Shown: positions 1,434 through 9,020 of the stretch, in pieces
Layout: the number at the start of each line of letters is the position of its first letter
Numbering within the stretch: position 1 is the first letter of the stretch
NCBI RefSeq assembly: GCF_020091585.1
Contig: NZ_CP083582.1
Location: 682,001-746,000, forward strand
Length of the DNA stretch: 64,000 nt
Reading direction: 5' to 3'
Origin: Kovacikia minuta CCNUW1
Lineage (GTDB): Bacteria; Cyanobacteriota; Cyanobacteriia; Leptolyngbyales; Leptolyngbyaceae
The notes under the pieces: model-generated
Seen by the model: only the letters and a program-made list of their open reading frames with translations
Databases searched by the model: none
Told to the model about the DNA's origin: nothing
Made by a program: the position numbers and the translations under genes

Positions 1434-1554
1434 AGTGGGTGTCAGGTGTCAGGTGTCAGGAACCCCAAAGAACCTGTACCTAAAGGTCTATTCTTGTCTA
1501 GAATTCAGATGATTAGCCCACTGCGTTAAAAAGTGGGTGACCAGTGGCATCTGC

Positions 1555-3078
1555 ATGGCTCGAACTCCTACCCTGTCCTACGATCGTGGTACCCTCATCC
1601 TGCATCCTCCCCCCCGTGGCAAAGATTGGATGGACTATGCAACCTGGGACGATCGAGTTGAAAAATTTCGGATTCCGGCAATCCAATATCGCCAACTGAT
1701 TACCGCATTACGGGCAACTGGGACGGAACTGGACGATCGGGCGAAGGAATTTCGCGAAATTGAACTGGTTCCCAGTTTGGAGATGGAACCCTATCGCCAT
1801 CAGCAGGAAGCGCTGGACGCCTGGATTAACGCAGGACGTACAGGCTTGGTCGTGTTGCCCACTGCCGCTGGAAAGACCTATCTGGCACAACTGGCGATGC
1901 AAGCAACCCAACGCAGTACATTAATTATGGTGCCAACTCTGGATTTGATGCATCAGTGGTACGCCCATCTCATTGCGGCTTTTCCCGATGGGGAAGTGGG
2001 TTTGCTGGGGGGTGGTTCCAGGGACAGAACCCCGATTTTGGTTGCCACTTACGATAGTGCGGCAATTCATGCTGAAACGTTGGGCAATCAGTATGCGCTG
2101 CTGGTGTTTGATGAATGTCATCATTTGCCGAGTGATTTTAACCGGGTGATTGCGGAATATGCGATCGCCCCTTATCGCCTCGGTTTAACCGCTACCCCCG
2201 AACGCACCGATGGTAAACACGAAGATTTAAGTGTCTTAATTGGTCCTGAGGTTTACCGCAAAAGTGCAGCGGAACTGTCGGGGACGGCTCTGGCAAAGCA
2301 TAAAACAACGCAGATTAAGGTCAATCTGTCGCAAAAGGAGCGTGATCGCTACGATGAGTTGATCCAGGTTCGCAACCAGTTTTTGCAGGACGCCAAAATT
2401 TTCCTGGGCACGGTGCAGGGTTGGCAGCGATTTGTGCAGGCAAGTGCCTGTTCCAAAGCGGGCAGGCGGGCAATGCTGGCGCATCGGGAAGCACGGGCGA
2501 TCGCCTTTGGCACGGAAGGCAAATTGCGGGTCTTAGCCGATCTGTTAGCGACCCATTACCCGGAACGCACGTTGATTTTTACCGATGACAATGCCACGGT
2601 TTATCGCATTTCCCAGGAGTTTTTGATTCCCGCGATCACCCACCAAACGGGCGTGAAGGAACGGCACGAAATTTTGACCCGGTTTAAGCAGGGGGAATAT
2701 CGATCGCTGGTTGCCTCAAGAGTCTTAAACGAGGGAGTTGATGTACCCGATGCGAGTGTGGCGATCGTTCTTTCTGGCACGGGTTCAACGCGTGAACATA
2801 TTCAGCGCTTAGGACGGGTGTTGCGCAAAGGCAAAGACCCGGACAAACTGGCACGGCTCTACGAAGTGGTTGCCGAAGACACCAACGAAGAAAACGTTTC
2901 CCGTCGCCGTCGGGGTCAGAAATTCCAACCGAAAAACCAGCCCCATCAATTGGAATTGGTGCCGACAAAATCTCCCTATTCCACTGAGCCAGCAGTGCTT
3001 CCCCGTGCCGCAGAAGCTTCTTCAAGCTGGAATCAAAAAATCATCCCAACAGGAGAAGCTCAGGTTGAGGAAGAGTGA
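1555..3078 (+). CDS. XPB/Rad25-like superfamily 2 DNA helicase
   Basis: About 507 residues. A GTG at 1537 would add six residues, but the ATG at 1555 (MARTPTLSYDRGTL) is the more family-like start. In order: a short N-terminal damage-recognition-like region, a Q-motif-like PYRHQQEALDAW, Walker A LPTAAGKT, motif II DECHH, motif III LGLTATPERTDG, then the second RecA fold with LVASRVLNEGVDVP and motif VI IQRLGRVLRKGK. This order is that of bacterial and archaeal XPB helicases, which open DNA in repair and often work with a Bax1-type nuclease. No such partner gene is adjacent. The C-terminal ~60 residues are basic, then low-complexity. Confidence 0.88.
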   Translation: MARTPTLSYDRGTLILHPPPRGKDWMDYATWDDRVEKFRIPAIQYRQLITALRATGTELDDRAKEFREIELVPSLEMEPYRHQQEALDAWINAGRTGLVVLPTAAGKTYLAQLAMQATQRSTLIMVPTLDLMHQWYAHLIAAFPDGEVGLLGGGSRDRTPILVATYDSAAIHAETLGNQYALLVFDECHHLPSDFNRVIAEYAIAPYRLGLTATPERTDGKHEDLSVLIGPEVYRKSAAELSGTALAKHKTTQIKVNLSQKERDRYDELIQVRNQFLQDAKIFLGTVQGWQRFVQASACSKAGRRAMLAHREARAIAFGTEGKLRVLADLLATHYPERTLIFTDDNATVYRISQEFLIPAITHQTGVKERHEILTRFKQGEYRSLVASRVLNEGVDVPDASVAIVLSGTGSTREHIQRLGRVLRKGKDPDKLARLYEVVAEDTNEENVSRRRRGQKFQPKNQPHQLELVPTKSPYSTEPAVLPRAAEASSSWNQKIIPTGEAQVEEE

Positions 3079-3516: not shown

Positions 3517-4374
3517 ATGCAATTAATCGAACTCAAGTTTCTGTTGAAACTAATAGGATTTCCAAACTATCGAGCAAAAATCACAGATGAAAAACTGAAA
3601 CCTAGTGATAAGACTTCTGCTATAGAACGTGACAAAGTTTGCCGTACTCTCGGTGAGCGGGGTATCGTAGATTATTCCCGTGAAGTCAGTAAGTTCAAAA
3701 TTGATCTAACTGGTAAAGCTTTACTCAAATCAAACACTACAGAAGTAGCGCTAACAAACGAACAACTCAAGGTTCTTCAAGCTTGTGAAAAGGAAGCAAT
3801 TCCACCGGGAAAAGTAAAAGGCATCGCCGCAGAAGAACGACAGTCTGTAATTCAGGATTTACAAGCAAAGGGATTTATTAAAGTTGAGAAAGAAACAATT
3901 AAGGAAGTTTGGTTAACTAATCAGGGGCATGAGTATCTAATAGAAGAGTGCCTTCCTAGCGGGAATACCACCATCAGCTTAAACCTGCTGAAAAACTATC
4001 TCATTTTTTTGCGGAAAGCCACCCAATCTTCTGTGACAAATTCTACAACTCAACCTTCTACTTTAATTGAAGCGCCATCGAATTCGCCCAATTTTTCAGC
4101 GAAACCTGATGATGAAAAGATTCTTGAGACGATTAAAGCACTAGATGAAGAAATTGGGACAGAAAATTATTTACCGATTTTTCATCTTAGACAGAAGTTA
4201 CAACCACCCTTATCCAGGGATGAATTAGATCAGGCACTTTATCGCTTACAGCGGCAAGACAAGATTGACATCAGTTCTCTCGTGGAAGCGATTCATTACA
4301 CGCCAGAACAGATACAGGCTGGAATTCCGCAAGACTCCGCAGGTCCCTTGTTCTTTTTAGTTGTGAACGGATAA
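3517..4374 (+). CDS. tandem winged-helix protein, first gene of candidate defence operon
   Basis: A 285-residue protein of unknown family. Three winged-helix-like units can be traced: residues ~1-75 (CRTLGERGIVDYS then FKIDLTGKALL), ~78-150 (VIQDLQAKGFIKVE then VWLTNQGHEYL) and ~195-275 (LDQALYRLQRQDKIDIS). A low-complexity Ser/Thr/Pro linker sits near residue 170-195. Each unit has the pattern of helices followed by a short beta wing. It could be the DNA-binding or specificity part of the complex, or a regulator. The ATG is preceded by agggtag. The next gene starts 48 bases downstream, so it is likely co-transcribed. Base composition looks more AT-rich than neighbouring housekeeping genes, in keeping with an accessory gene. 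Confidence 0.75.
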   Translation: MQLIELKFLLKLIGFPNYRAKITDEKLKPSDKTSAIERDKVCRTLGERGIVDYSREVSKFKIDLTGKALLKSNTTEVALTNEQLKVLQACEKEAIPPGKVKGIAAEERQSVIQDLQAKGFIKVEKETIKEVWLTNQGHEYLIEECLPSGNTTISLNLLKNYLIFLRKATQSSVTNSTTQPSTLIEAPSNSPNFSAKPDDEKILETIKALDEEIGTENYLPIFHLRQKLQPPLSRDELDQALYRLQRQDKIDISSLVEAIHYTPEQIQAGIPQDSAGPLFFLVVNG

Positions 4375-4422
4375 TTTTTATTACCTCAAACCCTTTTTCA
4401 CAGACTATTTGGAGGTGGTGAC

Positions 4423-6396
4423 GTGGCGACGATTGAAGACATCATTCGGCAGGAAGTCAATCCTTTTGATCCAGTCACCTTCAAGACTGGAAATTTCTGG
4501 CAAGAGGACAATTATGTGGTTGCTTCGACTGTGGATTCTATTCACCAGGATGCAATTGTCCAAATTACTCAGGTTTTGAATCAGATAGCAAAAGATAACT
4601 ACACGCGGACTGTCATGCTGGCAGGTGATGCTGGTTCCGGTAAGAGTTATGTTCTAAAACGGTTGAAACAAACGCTTAACTCTAAAGCTTTCTTTGCTTA
4701 CATTTCACCATTTGTGGATAGTGACTACATCTGGCGACATACATTGCGGCAAACCGTTGATAGCATGATGCACAAACCGGAAGGAAAGGAGGAATCTCAG
4801 TTACTTCTCTGGCTTAAAAGCCTTTCCGTTTTTAGAGATCGTAATCTGATGAAGAAACTCCTGGGTGAGCGGAATCTTTTTATTAACAATTTCAAAGCTG
4901 CTAACCCATCTGGAATCTTTCAAGCCAAAGAGTTTTTTGGTGTGTTATACGACCTAACCAATCCAGACTTATACTTCACTGCCTGTAGCTGGCTGCGGGG
5001 AGATGATCTAGATGAAGATGATTTGAAAGCCTTAAAGGTTAAAAAATCGATTGATAGTGAAACAGCCGCTCAAGGAATTTTGGCGAATCTTGGTAAAATT
5101 TCGGTTTCTACCTATCCAATTGTCCTTTGTTTTGATCAGGTTGAAAGTAAGCAGTTACCCGATGGCTCTGCGGATATTCAACCAGTTTTTAACATCAGTA
5201 CGTCTTTTCATAATGAGCGTCTCAAGAACTTTCTAATTATTATCAGTATTGTTACAAATACCTGGCGGCAAAATAGCGATCGTATTCAGCAGTCCGATAG
5301 AGATAGAGTTGAAAAATTAGTGGCTCTGAAACCAATTACACTCGATCAGGCTGAATCACTTTGGACAAGTAGGCTGTCTTTTTTACATCATCAGGCAAGC
5401 CCCAAACCTGAATCAAACATTTATCCGCTGACAAGAGAGATGCTGGAGAAAAAGTTTCCTGGTGGGAAAACAACACCCCGATTGACGCTAGTTCTGGGTC
5501 AGCAGTCATTCCTTAAACATAAGTTAGGGGGTGAAATAGAAATCATTCAGACGGATATTGTAGCTTTTTTCAAGCTTTTGTGGGAACAAGAATTTAAGAA
5601 GACAGAGCAGAAAATAACGAGAATTCGTCATTTTTCTGAGCCTGAATTAATCTCAATGCTCTCTCGAACATTGGCTGCTTTACAGATGAAAGAAATTCAG
5701 CCTAAGCTGTTGCCTAGCCCCACCTATTCCAGCTATTCGTTTACCTGTCGAAATCCAAAGAGAGATGGAAAGATTGGTCTGATTTGGTCGGAAAACCCTA
5801 GCTCATCATTCTTTCATGTTATGAATGCTTGTCAGAGAGTTTCAGAAAAACAACAGTGTCGAGCATTATATCTGATTCGGGCTGAAGGAACAGGAAAAGC
5901 TAATAGCAAAAGTTATGGAATTTATAAGAAAATCTTCGTCGATTCTACAAACAATCGACATATCAAGCCAGATGTTGAATCCGTTCACTACCTGGCAACT
6001 TACGACAGAATGGTAAACTCTGTCCATTCCCAAGAATTAGTTGTTGCCGGGGAAACCATTAAACTCAGTGAGCTTGAAGCCCTGATTCGAGACTCGGAAG
6101 TGTTAAAAGGGTGTCCTCTTCTACAGGATTTGGGAATTTTTCCGCGACCAAAAATGAAGGAACCTGATTTGAGAAGAGAAAAGGAATTTTTGCTGAGTTT
6201 CGTCAAGATTCATCATCTAATTTCCAGAAAAGTTGCATCTCAAAATACCTTTAGCCAATTTCCAAAGCTGAATGATGCTCAAATGAAACACTTGATTCAG
6301 GAACTTTGTCAAGAGAAGCTAATCAGCATTTTAGATGAGTCTGTATCAGTGGAAGATCAGATTATCTATTTAGTTCCGAACCAATCAGTAGCCTAG
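4423..6396 (+). CDS. P-loop AAA-type ATPase, second gene of candidate defence operon
   Basis: A 657-residue protein with a GTG start set 6 bases after a strong ribosome site (ggaggt, 4411-4416). Walker A is GDAGSGKS (residues 68-75) and a Walker B-like strand is VLCFDQVE (~234-241). The N-terminus has an FxxxxxxVASTVDSIHQDAI segment that precedes the P-loop in several large ATPases of restriction-type systems. KTTPRLTLVLG near residue 355 may hold a sensor or arginine-finger helix. The C-terminal ~270 residues are of no recognised family and end in a winged-helix-like PKLNDAQMKHLIQELCQEKL. The 11-base gap to the next gene suggests translational coupling. It is plausibly an ATP-driven sensor or loader for the nuclease-motor; this is inference by analogy with DndF/DptF-like and BrxC/PglY-like ATPases, not a recognised homology. 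Confidence 0.8.
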   Translation: MATIEDIIRQEVNPFDPVTFKTGNFWQEDNYVVASTVDSIHQDAIVQITQVLNQIAKDNYTRTVMLAGDAGSGKSYVLKRLKQTLNSKAFFAYISPFVDSDYIWRHTLRQTVDSMMHKPEGKEESQLLLWLKSLSVFRDRNLMKKLLGERNLFINNFKAANPSGIFQAKEFFGVLYDLTNPDLYFTACSWLRGDDLDEDDLKALKVKKSIDSETAAQGILANLGKISVSTYPIVLCFDQVESKQLPDGSADIQPVFNISTSFHNERLKNFLIIISIVTNTWRQNSDRIQQSDRDRVEKLVALKPITLDQAESLWTSRLSFLHHQASPKPESNIYPLTREMLEKKFPGGKTTPRLTLVLGQQSFLKHKLGGEIEIIQTDIVAFFKLLWEQEFKKTEQKITRIRHFSEPELISMLSRTLAALQMKEIQPKLLPSPTYSSYSFTCRNPKRDGKIGLIWSENPSSSFFHVMNACQRVSEKQQCRALYLIRAEGTGKANSKSYGIYKKIFVDSTNNRHIKPDVESVHYLATYDRMVNSVHSQELVVAGETIKLSELEALIRDSEVLKGCPLLQDLGIFPRPKMKEPDLRREKEFLLSFVKIHHLISRKVASQNTFSQFPKLNDAQMKHLIQELCQEKLISILDESVSVEDQIIYLVPNQSVA

Positions 6397-6407
6397 TAGT
6401 ATTTGTA

Positions 6408-9020
6408 ATGTCTTATCTGACAAAATCTGATGATATTCGGGCAGCAATCTATCAGCTAACTGCCTATTCAAGGCTCTGGGTAGATACCGAAGTTGCTGAA
6501 TGGTGGACATTCTTTCCCAAATTGTCGTTGATTCAGGTATTGGCAAATTCTGATGATTTCAAGGGTGATTCTGTTTACCTGCTGGACGTTCTAAATCAGC
6601 CCGATCTGGTACAGCTATTGATTGACCAGATTATGGTTAATCCCAATATTGAAAAAGTCTTTCATAATGCCAGTTATGATGTGAAATTTTTGGGAAAAGG
6701 AAGCGCAAAGAATATCACCTGTACTTTGAAATTAGCGAAACAATTTCCAAAAGCTGTTTTAGGAACCTCCAACTGTAAACTTAAAACACTGGCAAAAGAG
6801 CTTTGCAACTTTACAAATGTTGACGCAGAGCAACAGGCAAGCGATTGGGGAAAGCGGCCCCTTGGCACAGAACAGCTACTTTACGCCAGAATGGACACAG
6901 TTTATCTGGCACAGATCCATCAGTATTTACTCAAGCTAGCGTGTCAAAAATCTCCAATTGTGAATAAGCCTGACCCGTCTAAAACTTCATCCTTCAGTGT
7001 GACGAAAGTCCGGGTTGCTTTTGAGTGCGCCCGTTTGTTCTATCTAGCGCATCATTTTGATGGCATGACGATGTTTCTGCCCAATGGTCAAACCGCTGGC
7101 ATTGGTAATTCATTTCACGATTTGTCTGATCAGTTTGTCAGGACTGCTTTGAAGGAACCTCAGTTTCGGGAATTATTCAAGCCTGAGCCTGACCAACTGA
7201 AAACGGAAGAGGTTTCAGCCAGGATGCAAGAGGCATTTTACAATCTGGTTTTCTTTCCTTATCTGCAATCTACAATTCAGACTAACCCAGGCAAAGCCAA
7301 TGCGCTCCATCAACTCTGGCAGGGGTTAACGGGATTAATCCAAAGATGGGCACAACTTCTGGTCAACAATCGGCGTTACTGCTCTGCGGATGAGGTGATC
7401 AGTAAAACATTTCTGGCGCAGGAACTCAACGTTCAGCATCAATTTACGTTGCCCAACGGGAGCCAACAACTTGTCAAAGGTCGATTTGACAGTTTGGTCT
7501 ATGATTTCGAGAAGCATCGCCTTTGCGTTGTGGAGTATAAAACCTACCAGTCTCCGGATCAGTCTGCTCAACTGGCTCAGGTTGCCCTCTACAGCTATAT
7601 GCTGAAGGAACGGGTTGGCGTGCCGATCGACTCCGCTGTCTACAGTGTTCTACCGGATTGGAAGGAGTTGACATTTACGTGGAATGAATTGGAGAAAACG
7701 GTGCATCAACTCATTCCCCACAAGCTCCAACAGATGCAGCAATGGGCTGCCTGGAAACAAGGTCAACCTGATTCCCCTCCTCCCACTGCCCAGCTTCATT
7801 TATGTGACATTTGCCCCCAACGAACAAAGTGCCAAACTTTCTTTACAGTTGATGATCAAGTCTCAAAACCTGCTGATCAGCTTCCAGTCATCACTCCTCC
7901 AGGAACAGATTTACCTGATGCAGGTTCTAAACCACCTGAAGTCAAATCTCCTGATCCTGTAACTCAAGATGCAGATGCGATCGCAAACGAATTAGTAGCC
8001 ACTCTAAAATCTTTCGGGGTTGGCACGACTCATTACGGGACTGCGATCGGCCCCGCATTTATTCGTGTGAAACTGAAGCCGAATTCTGGCGTTAAGGTTA
8101 ATTCCATCTTGAAATTGTCGGATGATTTGAGAGTGCAGTTAGGGATTACCAATCCTCCATTAATTGCACCCCAGGCAGGGTACGTGAGTGTCGATCTACC
8201 TCGCCCGGATCGCCAATCTGCCTATTTTGATCAATACATCCAACCTCAAACATTACCGCTGACTGCTCCAACCCGGATTGCGATTGGTGTGAATCTAGAG
8301 GGACAGTTAATTGAAGCTGATTTATCCGATCCCAACACCTGTCATTTCTTAGTGGGAGGGACGACAGGAAGCGGCAAGAGCGAGTTTTTGCGATCGCTTC
8401 TGCTCAGCCTTTTAGTTCGCCATTCTCCGCAACAATTGCAAATTGCTCTTGTAGACCCTAAGCGCGTGACGTTTCCAGAATTTGGGCAAATGCCCTGGCT
8501 CTACACTCCAGTGGTGAAAGAGAGCGATCGCGCCATTGAACTCATGGAAAACTTGGTTGGGGAAATGGAATCCCGCTATCAGAAATTTGAAGTGAACCGA
8601 TGCAATGATTTGAGCAGCTACAACCAGAAAGTCAGCCAGCAACCCGACAAGCTTCTCCCGCGAATTGTCTGCATTTTCGATGAGTATGCAGACTTTATGG
8701 CAGAAAAAGAAACCGCTAAGGTATTGGAGCTTAGCATCAAACGTTTAGGTGCAATGGCAAGAGCAGCAGGGATTCACCTGATCATTGCAACCCAACGCCC
8801 AGAAGCAAAAATTGTTACCCCTGTGATTCGCTCCAACTTGCCCGGACGAGTCGCCCTACGAACCGCTAGCGAGGCTGATTCTATGATTATCTTGGGTGGA
8901 AAACAAGTGGAAGCTGCTTATCTGTTAGGTAAGGGGGATCTACTCTACTTGGCTGGGGCAAACCTTCTCCGACTTCAAAGCTTGTATGCACCAACCATTC
9001 ACTTATCGCAGCAAAGGTAA
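6408..9020 (+). CDS. three-domain fusion: RNase D-like exonuclease, Cas4/AddB-like Fe-S nuclease, FtsK/SpoIIIE translocase
   Basis: An 870-residue protein with three recognisable parts. (1) Residues ~1-180 form a DEDDy 3'-5' exonuclease: LWVDTEVA (Asp26, Glu28), FHNASYDVKFL (His86, Asp91) and YARMDTVYL (Tyr159, Asp163). (2) Residues ~200-480 form a RecB-type PD-(D/E)XK nuclease: GRFDSLVYD (Asp361), VVEYKT (Glu376, Lys378), QVALY (Gln391, Tyr395). Cys207 plus C466-x2-C469-x5-C475 matches the 4Fe-4S pattern of Cas4, AddB and Dna2. (3) A Pro-rich linker leads to an FtsK beta/alpha motor at ~525-865: Walker A GGTTGSGKS (650-658), VDPKR, Walker B CIFDEYADF and ATQRP. No membrane segments are present, so it is not cell-division FtsK. 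It likely moves along double-stranded DNA while degrading it. I know of no described protein with this exact order of domains. Confidence 0.9.
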   Translation: MSYLTKSDDIRAAIYQLTAYSRLWVDTEVAEWWTFFPKLSLIQVLANSDDFKGDSVYLLDVLNQPDLVQLLIDQIMVNPNIEKVFHNASYDVKFLGKGSAKNITCTLKLAKQFPKAVLGTSNCKLKTLAKELCNFTNVDAEQQASDWGKRPLGTEQLLYARMDTVYLAQIHQYLLKLACQKSPIVNKPDPSKTSSFSVTKVRVAFECARLFYLAHHFDGMTMFLPNGQTAGIGNSFHDLSDQFVRTALKEPQFRELFKPEPDQLKTEEVSARMQEAFYNLVFFPYLQSTIQTNPGKANALHQLWQGLTGLIQRWAQLLVNNRRYCSADEVISKTFLAQELNVQHQFTLPNGSQQLVKGRFDSLVYDFEKHRLCVVEYKTYQSPDQSAQLAQVALYSYMLKERVGVPIDSAVYSVLPDWKELTFTWNELEKTVHQLIPHKLQQMQQWAAWKQGQPDSPPPTAQLHLCDICPQRTKCQTFFTVDDQVSKPADQLPVITPPGTDLPDAGSKPPEVKSPDPVTQDADAIANELVATLKSFGVGTTHYGTAIGPAFIRVKLKPNSGVKVNSILKLSDDLRVQLGITNPPLIAPQAGYVSVDLPRPDRQSAYFDQYIQPQTLPLTAPTRIAIGVNLEGQLIEADLSDPNTCHFLVGGTTGSGKSEFLRSLLLSLLVRHSPQQLQIALVDPKRVTFPEFGQMPWLYTPVVKESDRAIELMENLVGEMESRYQKFEVNRCNDLSSYNQKVSQQPDKLLPRIVCIFDEYADFMAEKETAKVLELSIKRLGAMARAAGIHLIIATQRPEAKIVTPVIRSNLPGRVALRTASEADSMIILGGKQVEAAYLLGKGDLLYLAGANLLRLQSLYAPTIHLSQQR

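Follow-up and report, generated by a model that had tools for sequence, protein, structure and literature searches.

A three-gene FtsK–nuclease operon of cyanobacteria fits the predicted HerA/FtsK capture systems and appears to exchange its Orc/Cdc6-like ATPase

Within a 64,000-nucleotide stretch of the cyanobacterium Kovacikia minuta CCNUW1 (contig NZ_CP083582.1, positions 682,001 to 746,000; hereafter the window), three consecutive genes—g1, g2 and g3—encode a multi-winged-helix protein, a P-loop ATPase and a fusion of two nuclease domains with an FtsK-type motor. We observe a defined domain make-up, invariant catalytic residues, a conserved operon and, among relatives, apparent replacement of g2 against a constant g3. 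At a probability of roughly two in three, judged from sequence, the operon is a stand-alone anti-invader ‘FtsK capture’ system, in which g2 would serve recognition and g3 would pull and cut DNA.

Domain architecture and gene order

The g3 protein carries four domains with Pfam matches (Table 1), bearing out an initial sequence-only reading of the window that had described it as an exonuclease-nuclease-translocase fusion. Across 25 aligned homologues, residues D26, E28, D91, Y159 and D163 of the exonuclease and D361, E376 and K378 of the PD-(D/E)XK domain are invariant, as are four cysteines (207, 466, 469 and 475) and the Walker motifs of the motor. We take the former residues to represent the DEDDy and PD-(D/E)XK motifs and presume that the cysteines hold an iron-sulfur cluster as in Cas4/AddB nucleases. 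Both nucleases look active at the sequence level.

The g2 protein contains a Walker A motif, and Pfam AAA_16 matches it weakly, below the cut-off. Its AlphaFold2 model (predicted local distance difference test, pLDDT, 88; predicted template modelling score, pTM, 0.85) comprises an AAA+ core followed by a middle alpha/beta domain and a C-terminal winged helix; with the motif invariant and the fold of the AAA+ type, the P-loop ATPase expected as the middle gene was confirmed. Against solved structures, the core scored Z 14–15 with Orc/Cdc6, 13.8 with TnsC, 13.4 with RdrA (RADAR) and 12.2 with BrxC (BREX), and compact Orc/Cdc6 alignments covered 238–254 residues at a root-mean-square deviation of 3.6–4.3. 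Modelled g2 thus fits the Orc/Cdc6 clade by fold rank rather than by a tree, with TnsC, RdrA and BrxC close behind. The middle domain is a candidate inactive restriction-endonuclease fold (iREase), and it occupies the position described for such a domain in PMC10853773.

The AlphaFold2 model of g1 (pLDDT 86, pTM 0.55) shows three winged-helix units, so that the ‘tandem’ winged-helix protein of the sequence-only reading stood as to fold and fell as to number. In VIA-align comparisons of the model, residues 1–148 resembled MarR-family chains (Z 8–10) and residues 194–285 ScpA/MCM winged-helix chains (Z ~8). Pfam gave no match above a cut-off for g1, and Foldseek none for its model at E ≤ 0.001. 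The g1 protein is possibly a DndG-like adaptor.

The coordinates of the open reading frames (ORFs) corroborate three genes on one strand with intergenic gaps of 48 (g1–g2) and 11 bases (g2–g3). To look beyond the window, 84,980 species genomes were scanned with two FtsK-motor peptide patterns, which returned 153 relatives, of which 80 named loci were kept. The order g1-g2-g3 on one strand recurs in 66 of these 80; among the other 14, ten lack a visible g1 and/or g2 in the available sequence, and four carry an additional g2 or one that is divided between two ORFs. The arrangement is conserved beyond chance. Ratios of nonsynonymous to synonymous divergence (dN/dS) were 0.08–0.31 across 11 close pairs—four of which appear to have exchanged g2 itself—the exception being a Moorena pair with 0.53–0.58 for its g1 and g2.

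Apparent exchange of g2 and the g1 tail between relatives

From 68 loci we drew 21 disjoint pairs with g3 identity of at least 80% and scored g2 as exchanged when its synonymous divergence (dS) exceeded both 0.6 and 2.5 times that of g3. In 14 pairs the dS of g2 was near that of g3, whereas the remaining seven fell under the rule (g2 dS 0.64–2.71 versus g3 dS 0.15–0.76). In these seven of 21 close pairs, the sequences suggest that a divergent allele has taken the place of all or part of g2, with g3 left in place. Faster evolution of g2 was rejected as an explanation because dS, and not dN alone, is elevated. The last ~50 codons of g1 were clearly replaced along with g2 in five of the seven pairs (tail dS 1.7–2.2, identity 0.53–0.72; core dS 0.15–0.82). 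In the pair L129/L142, the g1 core is divergent too (dS 0.82); in L152/L162 the tail is ambiguous, with saturated dS and an identity of 0.79 similar to that of the core; and in L164/L169 the difference is confined to the later part of g2. The latter is the one exchanged pair from loci of metagenome-assembled genomes (MAGs), the other record titles bearing no MAG mark, and chimeric bins were dismissed as the cause.

Correlating g1 with g2 identity, given g3, over 213 related pairs with g3 identity of at least 0.75 placed the boundary within g1: the last three bins (residue 241 onwards) gave partial r of 0.85, 0.83 and 0.58, as against −0.20 to 0.22 in the twelve bins of residues 1–240 and −0.19 to 0.30 in bins of g3. 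Across all 2278 pairs, the partial Mantel r with g2 was 0.66 for the g1 tail and 0.30 for the g1 core (each with 0 of 1999 permutations as high); given the latter value, the tail is not the sole g2-correlated part of g1.

Tree comparisons pointed the same way. All three approximately unbiased (AU) tests that were completed rejected, on g2, clades with full support on the g3 tree, namely L146+L193 (p-AU 1.3e-6), L139+L154 (1e-67) and L174+L177+L178 (2e-51), these p values not coming from a blind test as the groups were picked after their low g2 identity had been seen. Two control clades were recovered on the g2 tree with full support. Tandem g2 copies at four loci are 39–53% identical, about as divergent as the exchanged alleles, and exchange could have come about either by transfer or by shuffling inside tandem arrays. 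L129 and L146 share a g2 type (identity 0.66 for g2, 0.72 for g3); no pair had a g2 identity exceeding that of g3 by 0.05 or more (largest excess ~0.02), so no donor emerged.

Table 1 Coordinates of the operon, its domains and a related fused gene (window positions unless a locus is given)
Feature	Position	Strand	Basis
g1	3517..4374	+	ORF, 285 aa
g1 tail (residues 241-285, second half of winged helix 3), co-varies with g2	4237..4371	+	partial r with g2 identity given g3
Region exchanged in relatives: g1 end + g2	4237..6396	+	7/21 disjoint pairs, AU tests, bins; not shown for the window's own copy
g2	4423..6396	+	ORF, 657 aa, GTG start
g2 Walker A GDAGSGKS (residues 68-75)	4624..4647	+	G68, G73, K74 invariant across 28 and across 37 homologues
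g2 middle domain (residues 379-580), alpha-beta-beta-beta-alpha-beta order, candidate iREase	5557..6162	+	secondary structure of model
g2 C-terminal winged helix (residues 584-651)	6172..6375	+	secondary structure of model
g3	6408..9020	+	ORF, 870 aa
g3 DEDDy-type 3'-5' exonuclease domain (residues 3-176)	6414..6935	+	Pfam DNA_pol_A_exo1 1.8e-26
g3 PD-(D/E)XK nuclease domain (residues 195-476)	6990..7835	+	PDDEXK_1 1.1e-14; PADLOC Cas4 1.2e-7
g3 FtsK alpha domain (residues 518-598)	7959..8201	+	Pfam FtsK_alpha 1e-10
g3 FtsK/SpoIIIE motor (residues 622-798)	8271..8801	+	Pfam FtsK_SpoIIIE 3.8e-40; solved FtsK 2iuu 1.6e-64
Fused DEDDh exonuclease-AAA+ ATPase	L114:8420-10771

Distribution and genomic sites

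All 80 kept relatives are cyanobacterial, a confinement that applies to these 80 of the 153 candidates. In a survey set of 339 sampled Cyanobacteriota genomes, g3 was matched at 1e-40 in 69, of which 33 had a long match (E ≤ 1e-160) and 36 matched via a part only, for example through a stand-alone exonuclease or a different FtsK. A strong g2 match (E ≤ 1e-100) was found in 41 genomes, comprising eight without long g3 and all 33 with it, so that mapping across cyanobacteria bore out the co-occurrence of the two genes. Among the 80 loci, four have g3 without g2 or g1; three of them start at a contig end, and the fourth is L123, taken up below. One operon copy resides on plasmid pPSE7367.01, typed by prediction as conjugative, where its genes carry the labels hypothetical protein, P-loop NTPase fold protein and DNA translocase FtsK.

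Glycosyltransferase genes on one side and a parA-ileS pair on the other flank the operon in many genomes. Among 20 ileS-parA sites, mostly from genomes without the full operon there, three hold a lone g2 and one an exonuclease fragment that is 90% identical to the start of g3 in a sister genome. One sampled genus shows a series of decay: the operon is intact in G284, g3 is reduced to the exonuclease in G199 and an exonuclease fragment is all that is left in G251. The parA gene was considered as a fourth operon gene and discarded: it marks the site, being present at E ≤ 1e-60 in 87 of 339 genomes, many of them operon-free, and was not found in the window's genome at that threshold. Alternative cargo at the ileS-parA site consists of an opposite-strand pair encoding an HSDR_N-like domain (weak) fused to a ParA ATPase and a ParB_N-domain protein, found at L098:11356-13523 and several of L208–L227.

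As to the immediate surroundings in the window, the neighbours had been called ordinary metabolic or repair genes, and Pfam agreed in those tested: an FMN oxidoreductase, an XPB-type helicase and a PadR regulator. A further flanking gene is a large ORF, RND transporter-like as judged by eye. The helicase (window positions 1537–3078, upstream of the operon) matches PADLOC PbeA models at 2e-52, and its NCBIfam XPB match is below the cut-off.

Variants and wider family

Several loci deviate in g3. In its place, L092 encodes a 301-aa protein with 41% identity to the g3 nuclease region (Pfam gives it no match at 0.001), and L095 encodes an exonuclease of 186 aa, while six loci (L196–L200, L202) have g3 without the exonuclease domain. 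The 1121-aa homologue at L089:10508-13873 carries an insertion, a Ser/Thr kinase domain, after the exonuclease; its nuclease region is detected by BLAST and not by Pfam, and a separate PD-(D/E)XK protein is encoded upstream at 5925-6788. At L086:3409-10503, the g3 coding region falls into two pieces that are separated by ~7 kb containing other ORFs. Two g2 genes stand in tandem at L093 and at L094, neither locus having an adjacent g3 (the L094 genome has g3 elsewhere), and the gene order at L080 is g1-g2-g2-g1-g2-g3.

Distant g2 relatives define a second arrangement. In 16 of 20 fetched loci (‘type B’), a g1-like gene is adjacent and a gene of 459–518 aa is next on the same strand; the two of these third genes that were scanned both encode DUF1802, one with an Mrr-type nuclease match just below cut-off. 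The other four loci (L109, L114, L118, L120) each encode a single protein of ~780–816 aa that joins a DEDDh exonuclease to an AAA+ ATPase of this kind. Profile comparison of g1 with its type B counterpart g1' (7e-13), of g2 with g2' (3e-33) and of g2 with the exonuclease-fused ATPase (2e-23) supports kinship of both groups with the window operon. Type B is patchy as well, with matches at 1e-30 in 53 of 339 genomes, at least two of these only via type A g2. A similar tendency towards divergence of the ATPase appears in type B. In the pair L108/L112, identity is 0.82 for g1', 0.42 for g2' and 0.75 for g3' (0.87–0.93 in the nuclease part, 0.55–0.60 in the DUF1802 part); the pair L110/L111 showed no such tendency. 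The window's genome carries a type B operon of its own outside the window, at L103:9462-13696, encoding a winged-helix protein, an Orc-like ATPase and a DUF1802 protein.

Comparison with known systems

The sequence-only reading had proposed an undescribed system, and this did not hold. ‘HerA/FtsK capture systems’ were predicted in silico by Rakesh, Aravind and Krishnan in 2024 (PMC10853773). In the account drawn on here, they comprise an Orc/Cdc6 ATPase with an inactive restriction endonuclease (REase) before the winged helix, together with an active REase and a HerA/FtsK domain (in one set with FtsK alpha); some of the operons encode a protein with two to four winged helices, in some the motor is fused to a 3'-5' exonuclease, and the systems are predicted to intercept invader DNA. 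A 2026 BREX paper (PMC12839542) returns to the same theme. Capture systems and the window operon have in common an AAA+ ATPase of the Orc/Cdc6 type in which a further domain separates the AAA+ part from the C-terminal winged helix, the REase, HerA/FtsK with FtsK alpha, the multi-winged-helix protein—called DndG-related in PMC10853773—and the exonuclease-FtsK fusion. We find in the window an Orc/Cdc6-type ATPase (by fold rank), a HerA/FtsK motor, an REase predicted from its residues to be active and a three-winged-helix protein. Because the operon agrees with the published description in these tested features, its kind was already known in silico, and by architecture it fits an Orc/Cdc6-coupled HerA/FtsK capture system. 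An operon of Orc/Cdc6, REase-ASCH and triple-winged-helix proteins in PMC10853773 resembles type B. The main text of that paper contains no word starting with ‘cyanobacteri’, and loci of the window type may be in its supplement; cassette exchange, kinase insertion and a decay series were not found in the account used.

SspFGH is alike in combining an ATPase, a middle protein and an FtsK-ended protein, and it pairs with the sspBCD modification genes (PMC8092258). For comparison we used the Ssp proteins of two cyanobacterial loci identified by PADLOC. The g3 motor aligned with SspH (hhalign 1.4e-39), the best local alignment joining profile positions 537–860 to SspH 1430–1763 only. Between g2 and SspF the profile probability was 11%, over the P-loop only; at E ≤ 0.001, SspF models hit two of the 37 g2 proteins, 3e-5 being the best value, and SspG matched neither g1 nor g2 in profile comparison. 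Membership in SspFGH was rejected on these profiles, the FtsK motor being the sole shared part. In a cyanobacterial genome, L229:7998-19852 carries SspC (part), SspD, SspF, SspG and SspH genes with a cysteine-desulfurase-like gene.

HerA-NurA and HerA-Sir2 complexes likewise couple an FtsK/HerA motor to a nuclease, whereas the nucleases here are usually fused to the motor and accompanied by an Orc-like ATPase and a winged-helix protein. Both PADLOC and NCBIfam contain DndF, DndG and DndH models, none of which was among the matches of g1–g3 in either collection at E ≤ 1, a negative that stands for these model collections and not for a direct profile comparison with DndFGH proteins. The earlier comparison with DndFGH (DptFGH) is apt in its logic, an analogous division of labour between ATPase, winged-helix protein and motor-nuclease (PMC10853773), and not in terms of model matches. 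Overall, PADLOC and structure searches yielded Cas4 (1.2e-7) for g3 and the Orc/Cdc6 fold for g2, and no DndFGH model.

Alternative explanations

The operon might be an unlinked phosphorothioate-dependent restriction module, the missing partner of cyanobacterial dnd modification genes. DndC scored above its curated cut-off in 30 of 33 operon genomes versus 54 of 306 others. However, all 19 genomes of family f7 listed without long g3 also have DndC—seven of them retaining a g2 or a fragment of g3—so that the association can be put down to common descent. Full-length DndC is missing, moreover, from three operon genomes: the window's own, G051 and G159 (a draft of 200 contigs). The first of these combines an intact operon with only a DndC-like fragment (L233:9123-9971, in a region whose ORFs include one that by eye resembles a transposase), possibly a relic of a modification locus. 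SspD was present at E < 1e-100 in five of the 33 operon genomes, the window's genome giving a weak partial match only (5e-4). The remark that phosphorothioation genes are lacking thus agrees with the window's genome, in which full-length DndC and SspD, the two sought, were not found. Since it has no full-length DndC, strict dependence of the operon on phosphorothioation is unlikely; unprotected SspFGH and DndFGH are known to damage their own host (PMC8092258). With DndC in 19 of 19 relatives lacking long g3 and missing from three operon genomes, we rejected a phosphorothioate partner as the leading explanation and give it little credence.

A role in DNA repair or end processing, in which g2 would load g3 after damage and g3 would resect in the manner of HerA-NurA or AddAB, would agree with the function of HerA motors with NurA in end resection, with a g3 tree that mostly tracks orders and with the XPB-type helicase upstream in the window. 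Yet the ubiquity that would mark a companion of repair genes was not seen: long g3 occurs in only 33 of 339 genomes, and a single weak partial match to the helicase turned up among 40 other operon loci. Decay within one genus (G284 to G199 and G251) also speaks against it, replacement of g2 by divergent alleles would be unexpected for a housekeeping repair loader, and we regard repair as unlikely. Least probable of all is a domesticated partition or maintenance system of plasmids or other mobile elements, rather than defence. It could account for the copy on the conjugative-typed pPSE7367.01, the matches of FtsK-like motors in 822 plasmid records and the parA and ParB-like genes near the operon at the chromosomal site, but is at odds with two active-looking nucleases in one protein, with a parA that is present in many operon-free genomes and not found in the window's, and with several copies in records titled chromosome or nearly complete genome.

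We thus return to the anti-invader reading, for which invariant catalytic residues, a maintained gene order, exchanged g2, patchy occurrence, the plasmid copy and partial copies at one site all argue; tandem divergent g2 copies, the similar tendency in type B and the kinase-inserted variant point in the same direction, and the same architecture was independently predicted to be anti-invader (PMC10853773). The self-contained three-gene DNA-targeting module of the sequence-only reading has accordingly gained from its patchiness, its plasmid copy, its remnants at a shared site and its exchanged g2.

Several observations weigh against this reading. Apart from the post hoc choice of the AU groups, some of the apparent exchange could have arisen from ancestral tandem copies that were lost differentially, and the pattern reveals divergent alleles, not what these alleles recognise. 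In three of the 33 genomes (G051, G101, G233), g3 lies away from g2. L123 (a MAG locus, 4367-6889), the window's closest relative by identity, has a g3 without residues 1–55, with g2 absent from the upstream 4.4 kb and unmatched elsewhere in the genome; this g3 is possibly a relic or a g2-independent form, and because of it we no longer make the strong claim that g2 always accompanies g3. The recurrent flanks are glycosyltransferase, parA and ileS genes, not a classical defence island. Because the g3 tree largely tracks cyanobacterial orders, with three changes needed for Nostocales, the operon looks old and mostly vertically inherited, with repeated loss and occasional transfer.

Proposed mechanism and implications

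The system is conserved and real, and an anti-invader role is, by sequence criteria, its most likely one. We propose that g2 would recognise a feature of incoming phage, plasmid or conjugative DNA, or of the invader's replication or transfer machinery, and would assemble on DNA upon ATP binding. The variable C-terminal tail of g1 would connect g2 to the constant core, and g2 would load or activate g3, whose FtsK-type motor would then draw double-stranded DNA past the Cas4-like nuclease and the 3'-5' exonuclease. By analogy, an Orc-like loader would be a natural fit for a ring-shaped FtsK motor. More tentatively, and at somewhat less than even odds, the system may be restriction-like without a modification enzyme: the cassette of g1 tail and g2 would be recombined from operon to operon under diversifying selection, like type I hsdS, redirecting a constant FtsK-nuclease engine to new invaders, with tandem g2 genes providing several recognisers.

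Many cyanobacteria have dnd modification genes, yet the dndFGH cluster is reported to be absent from Cyanobacteria (PMC8569181); the operon, often found in the same genomes, bears on this observation. The FtsK-based capture class has been predicted (PMC10853773), and what is new here is evidence that the ATPase is the exchangeable part of such a predicted kind of system. The exchange pattern separates a constant part (g1 core and g3) from a variable one (g2, mostly with the g1 tail) and therefore identifies the piece to swap experimentally, with sister strains that carry different cassettes offering ready-made comparisons of specificity.

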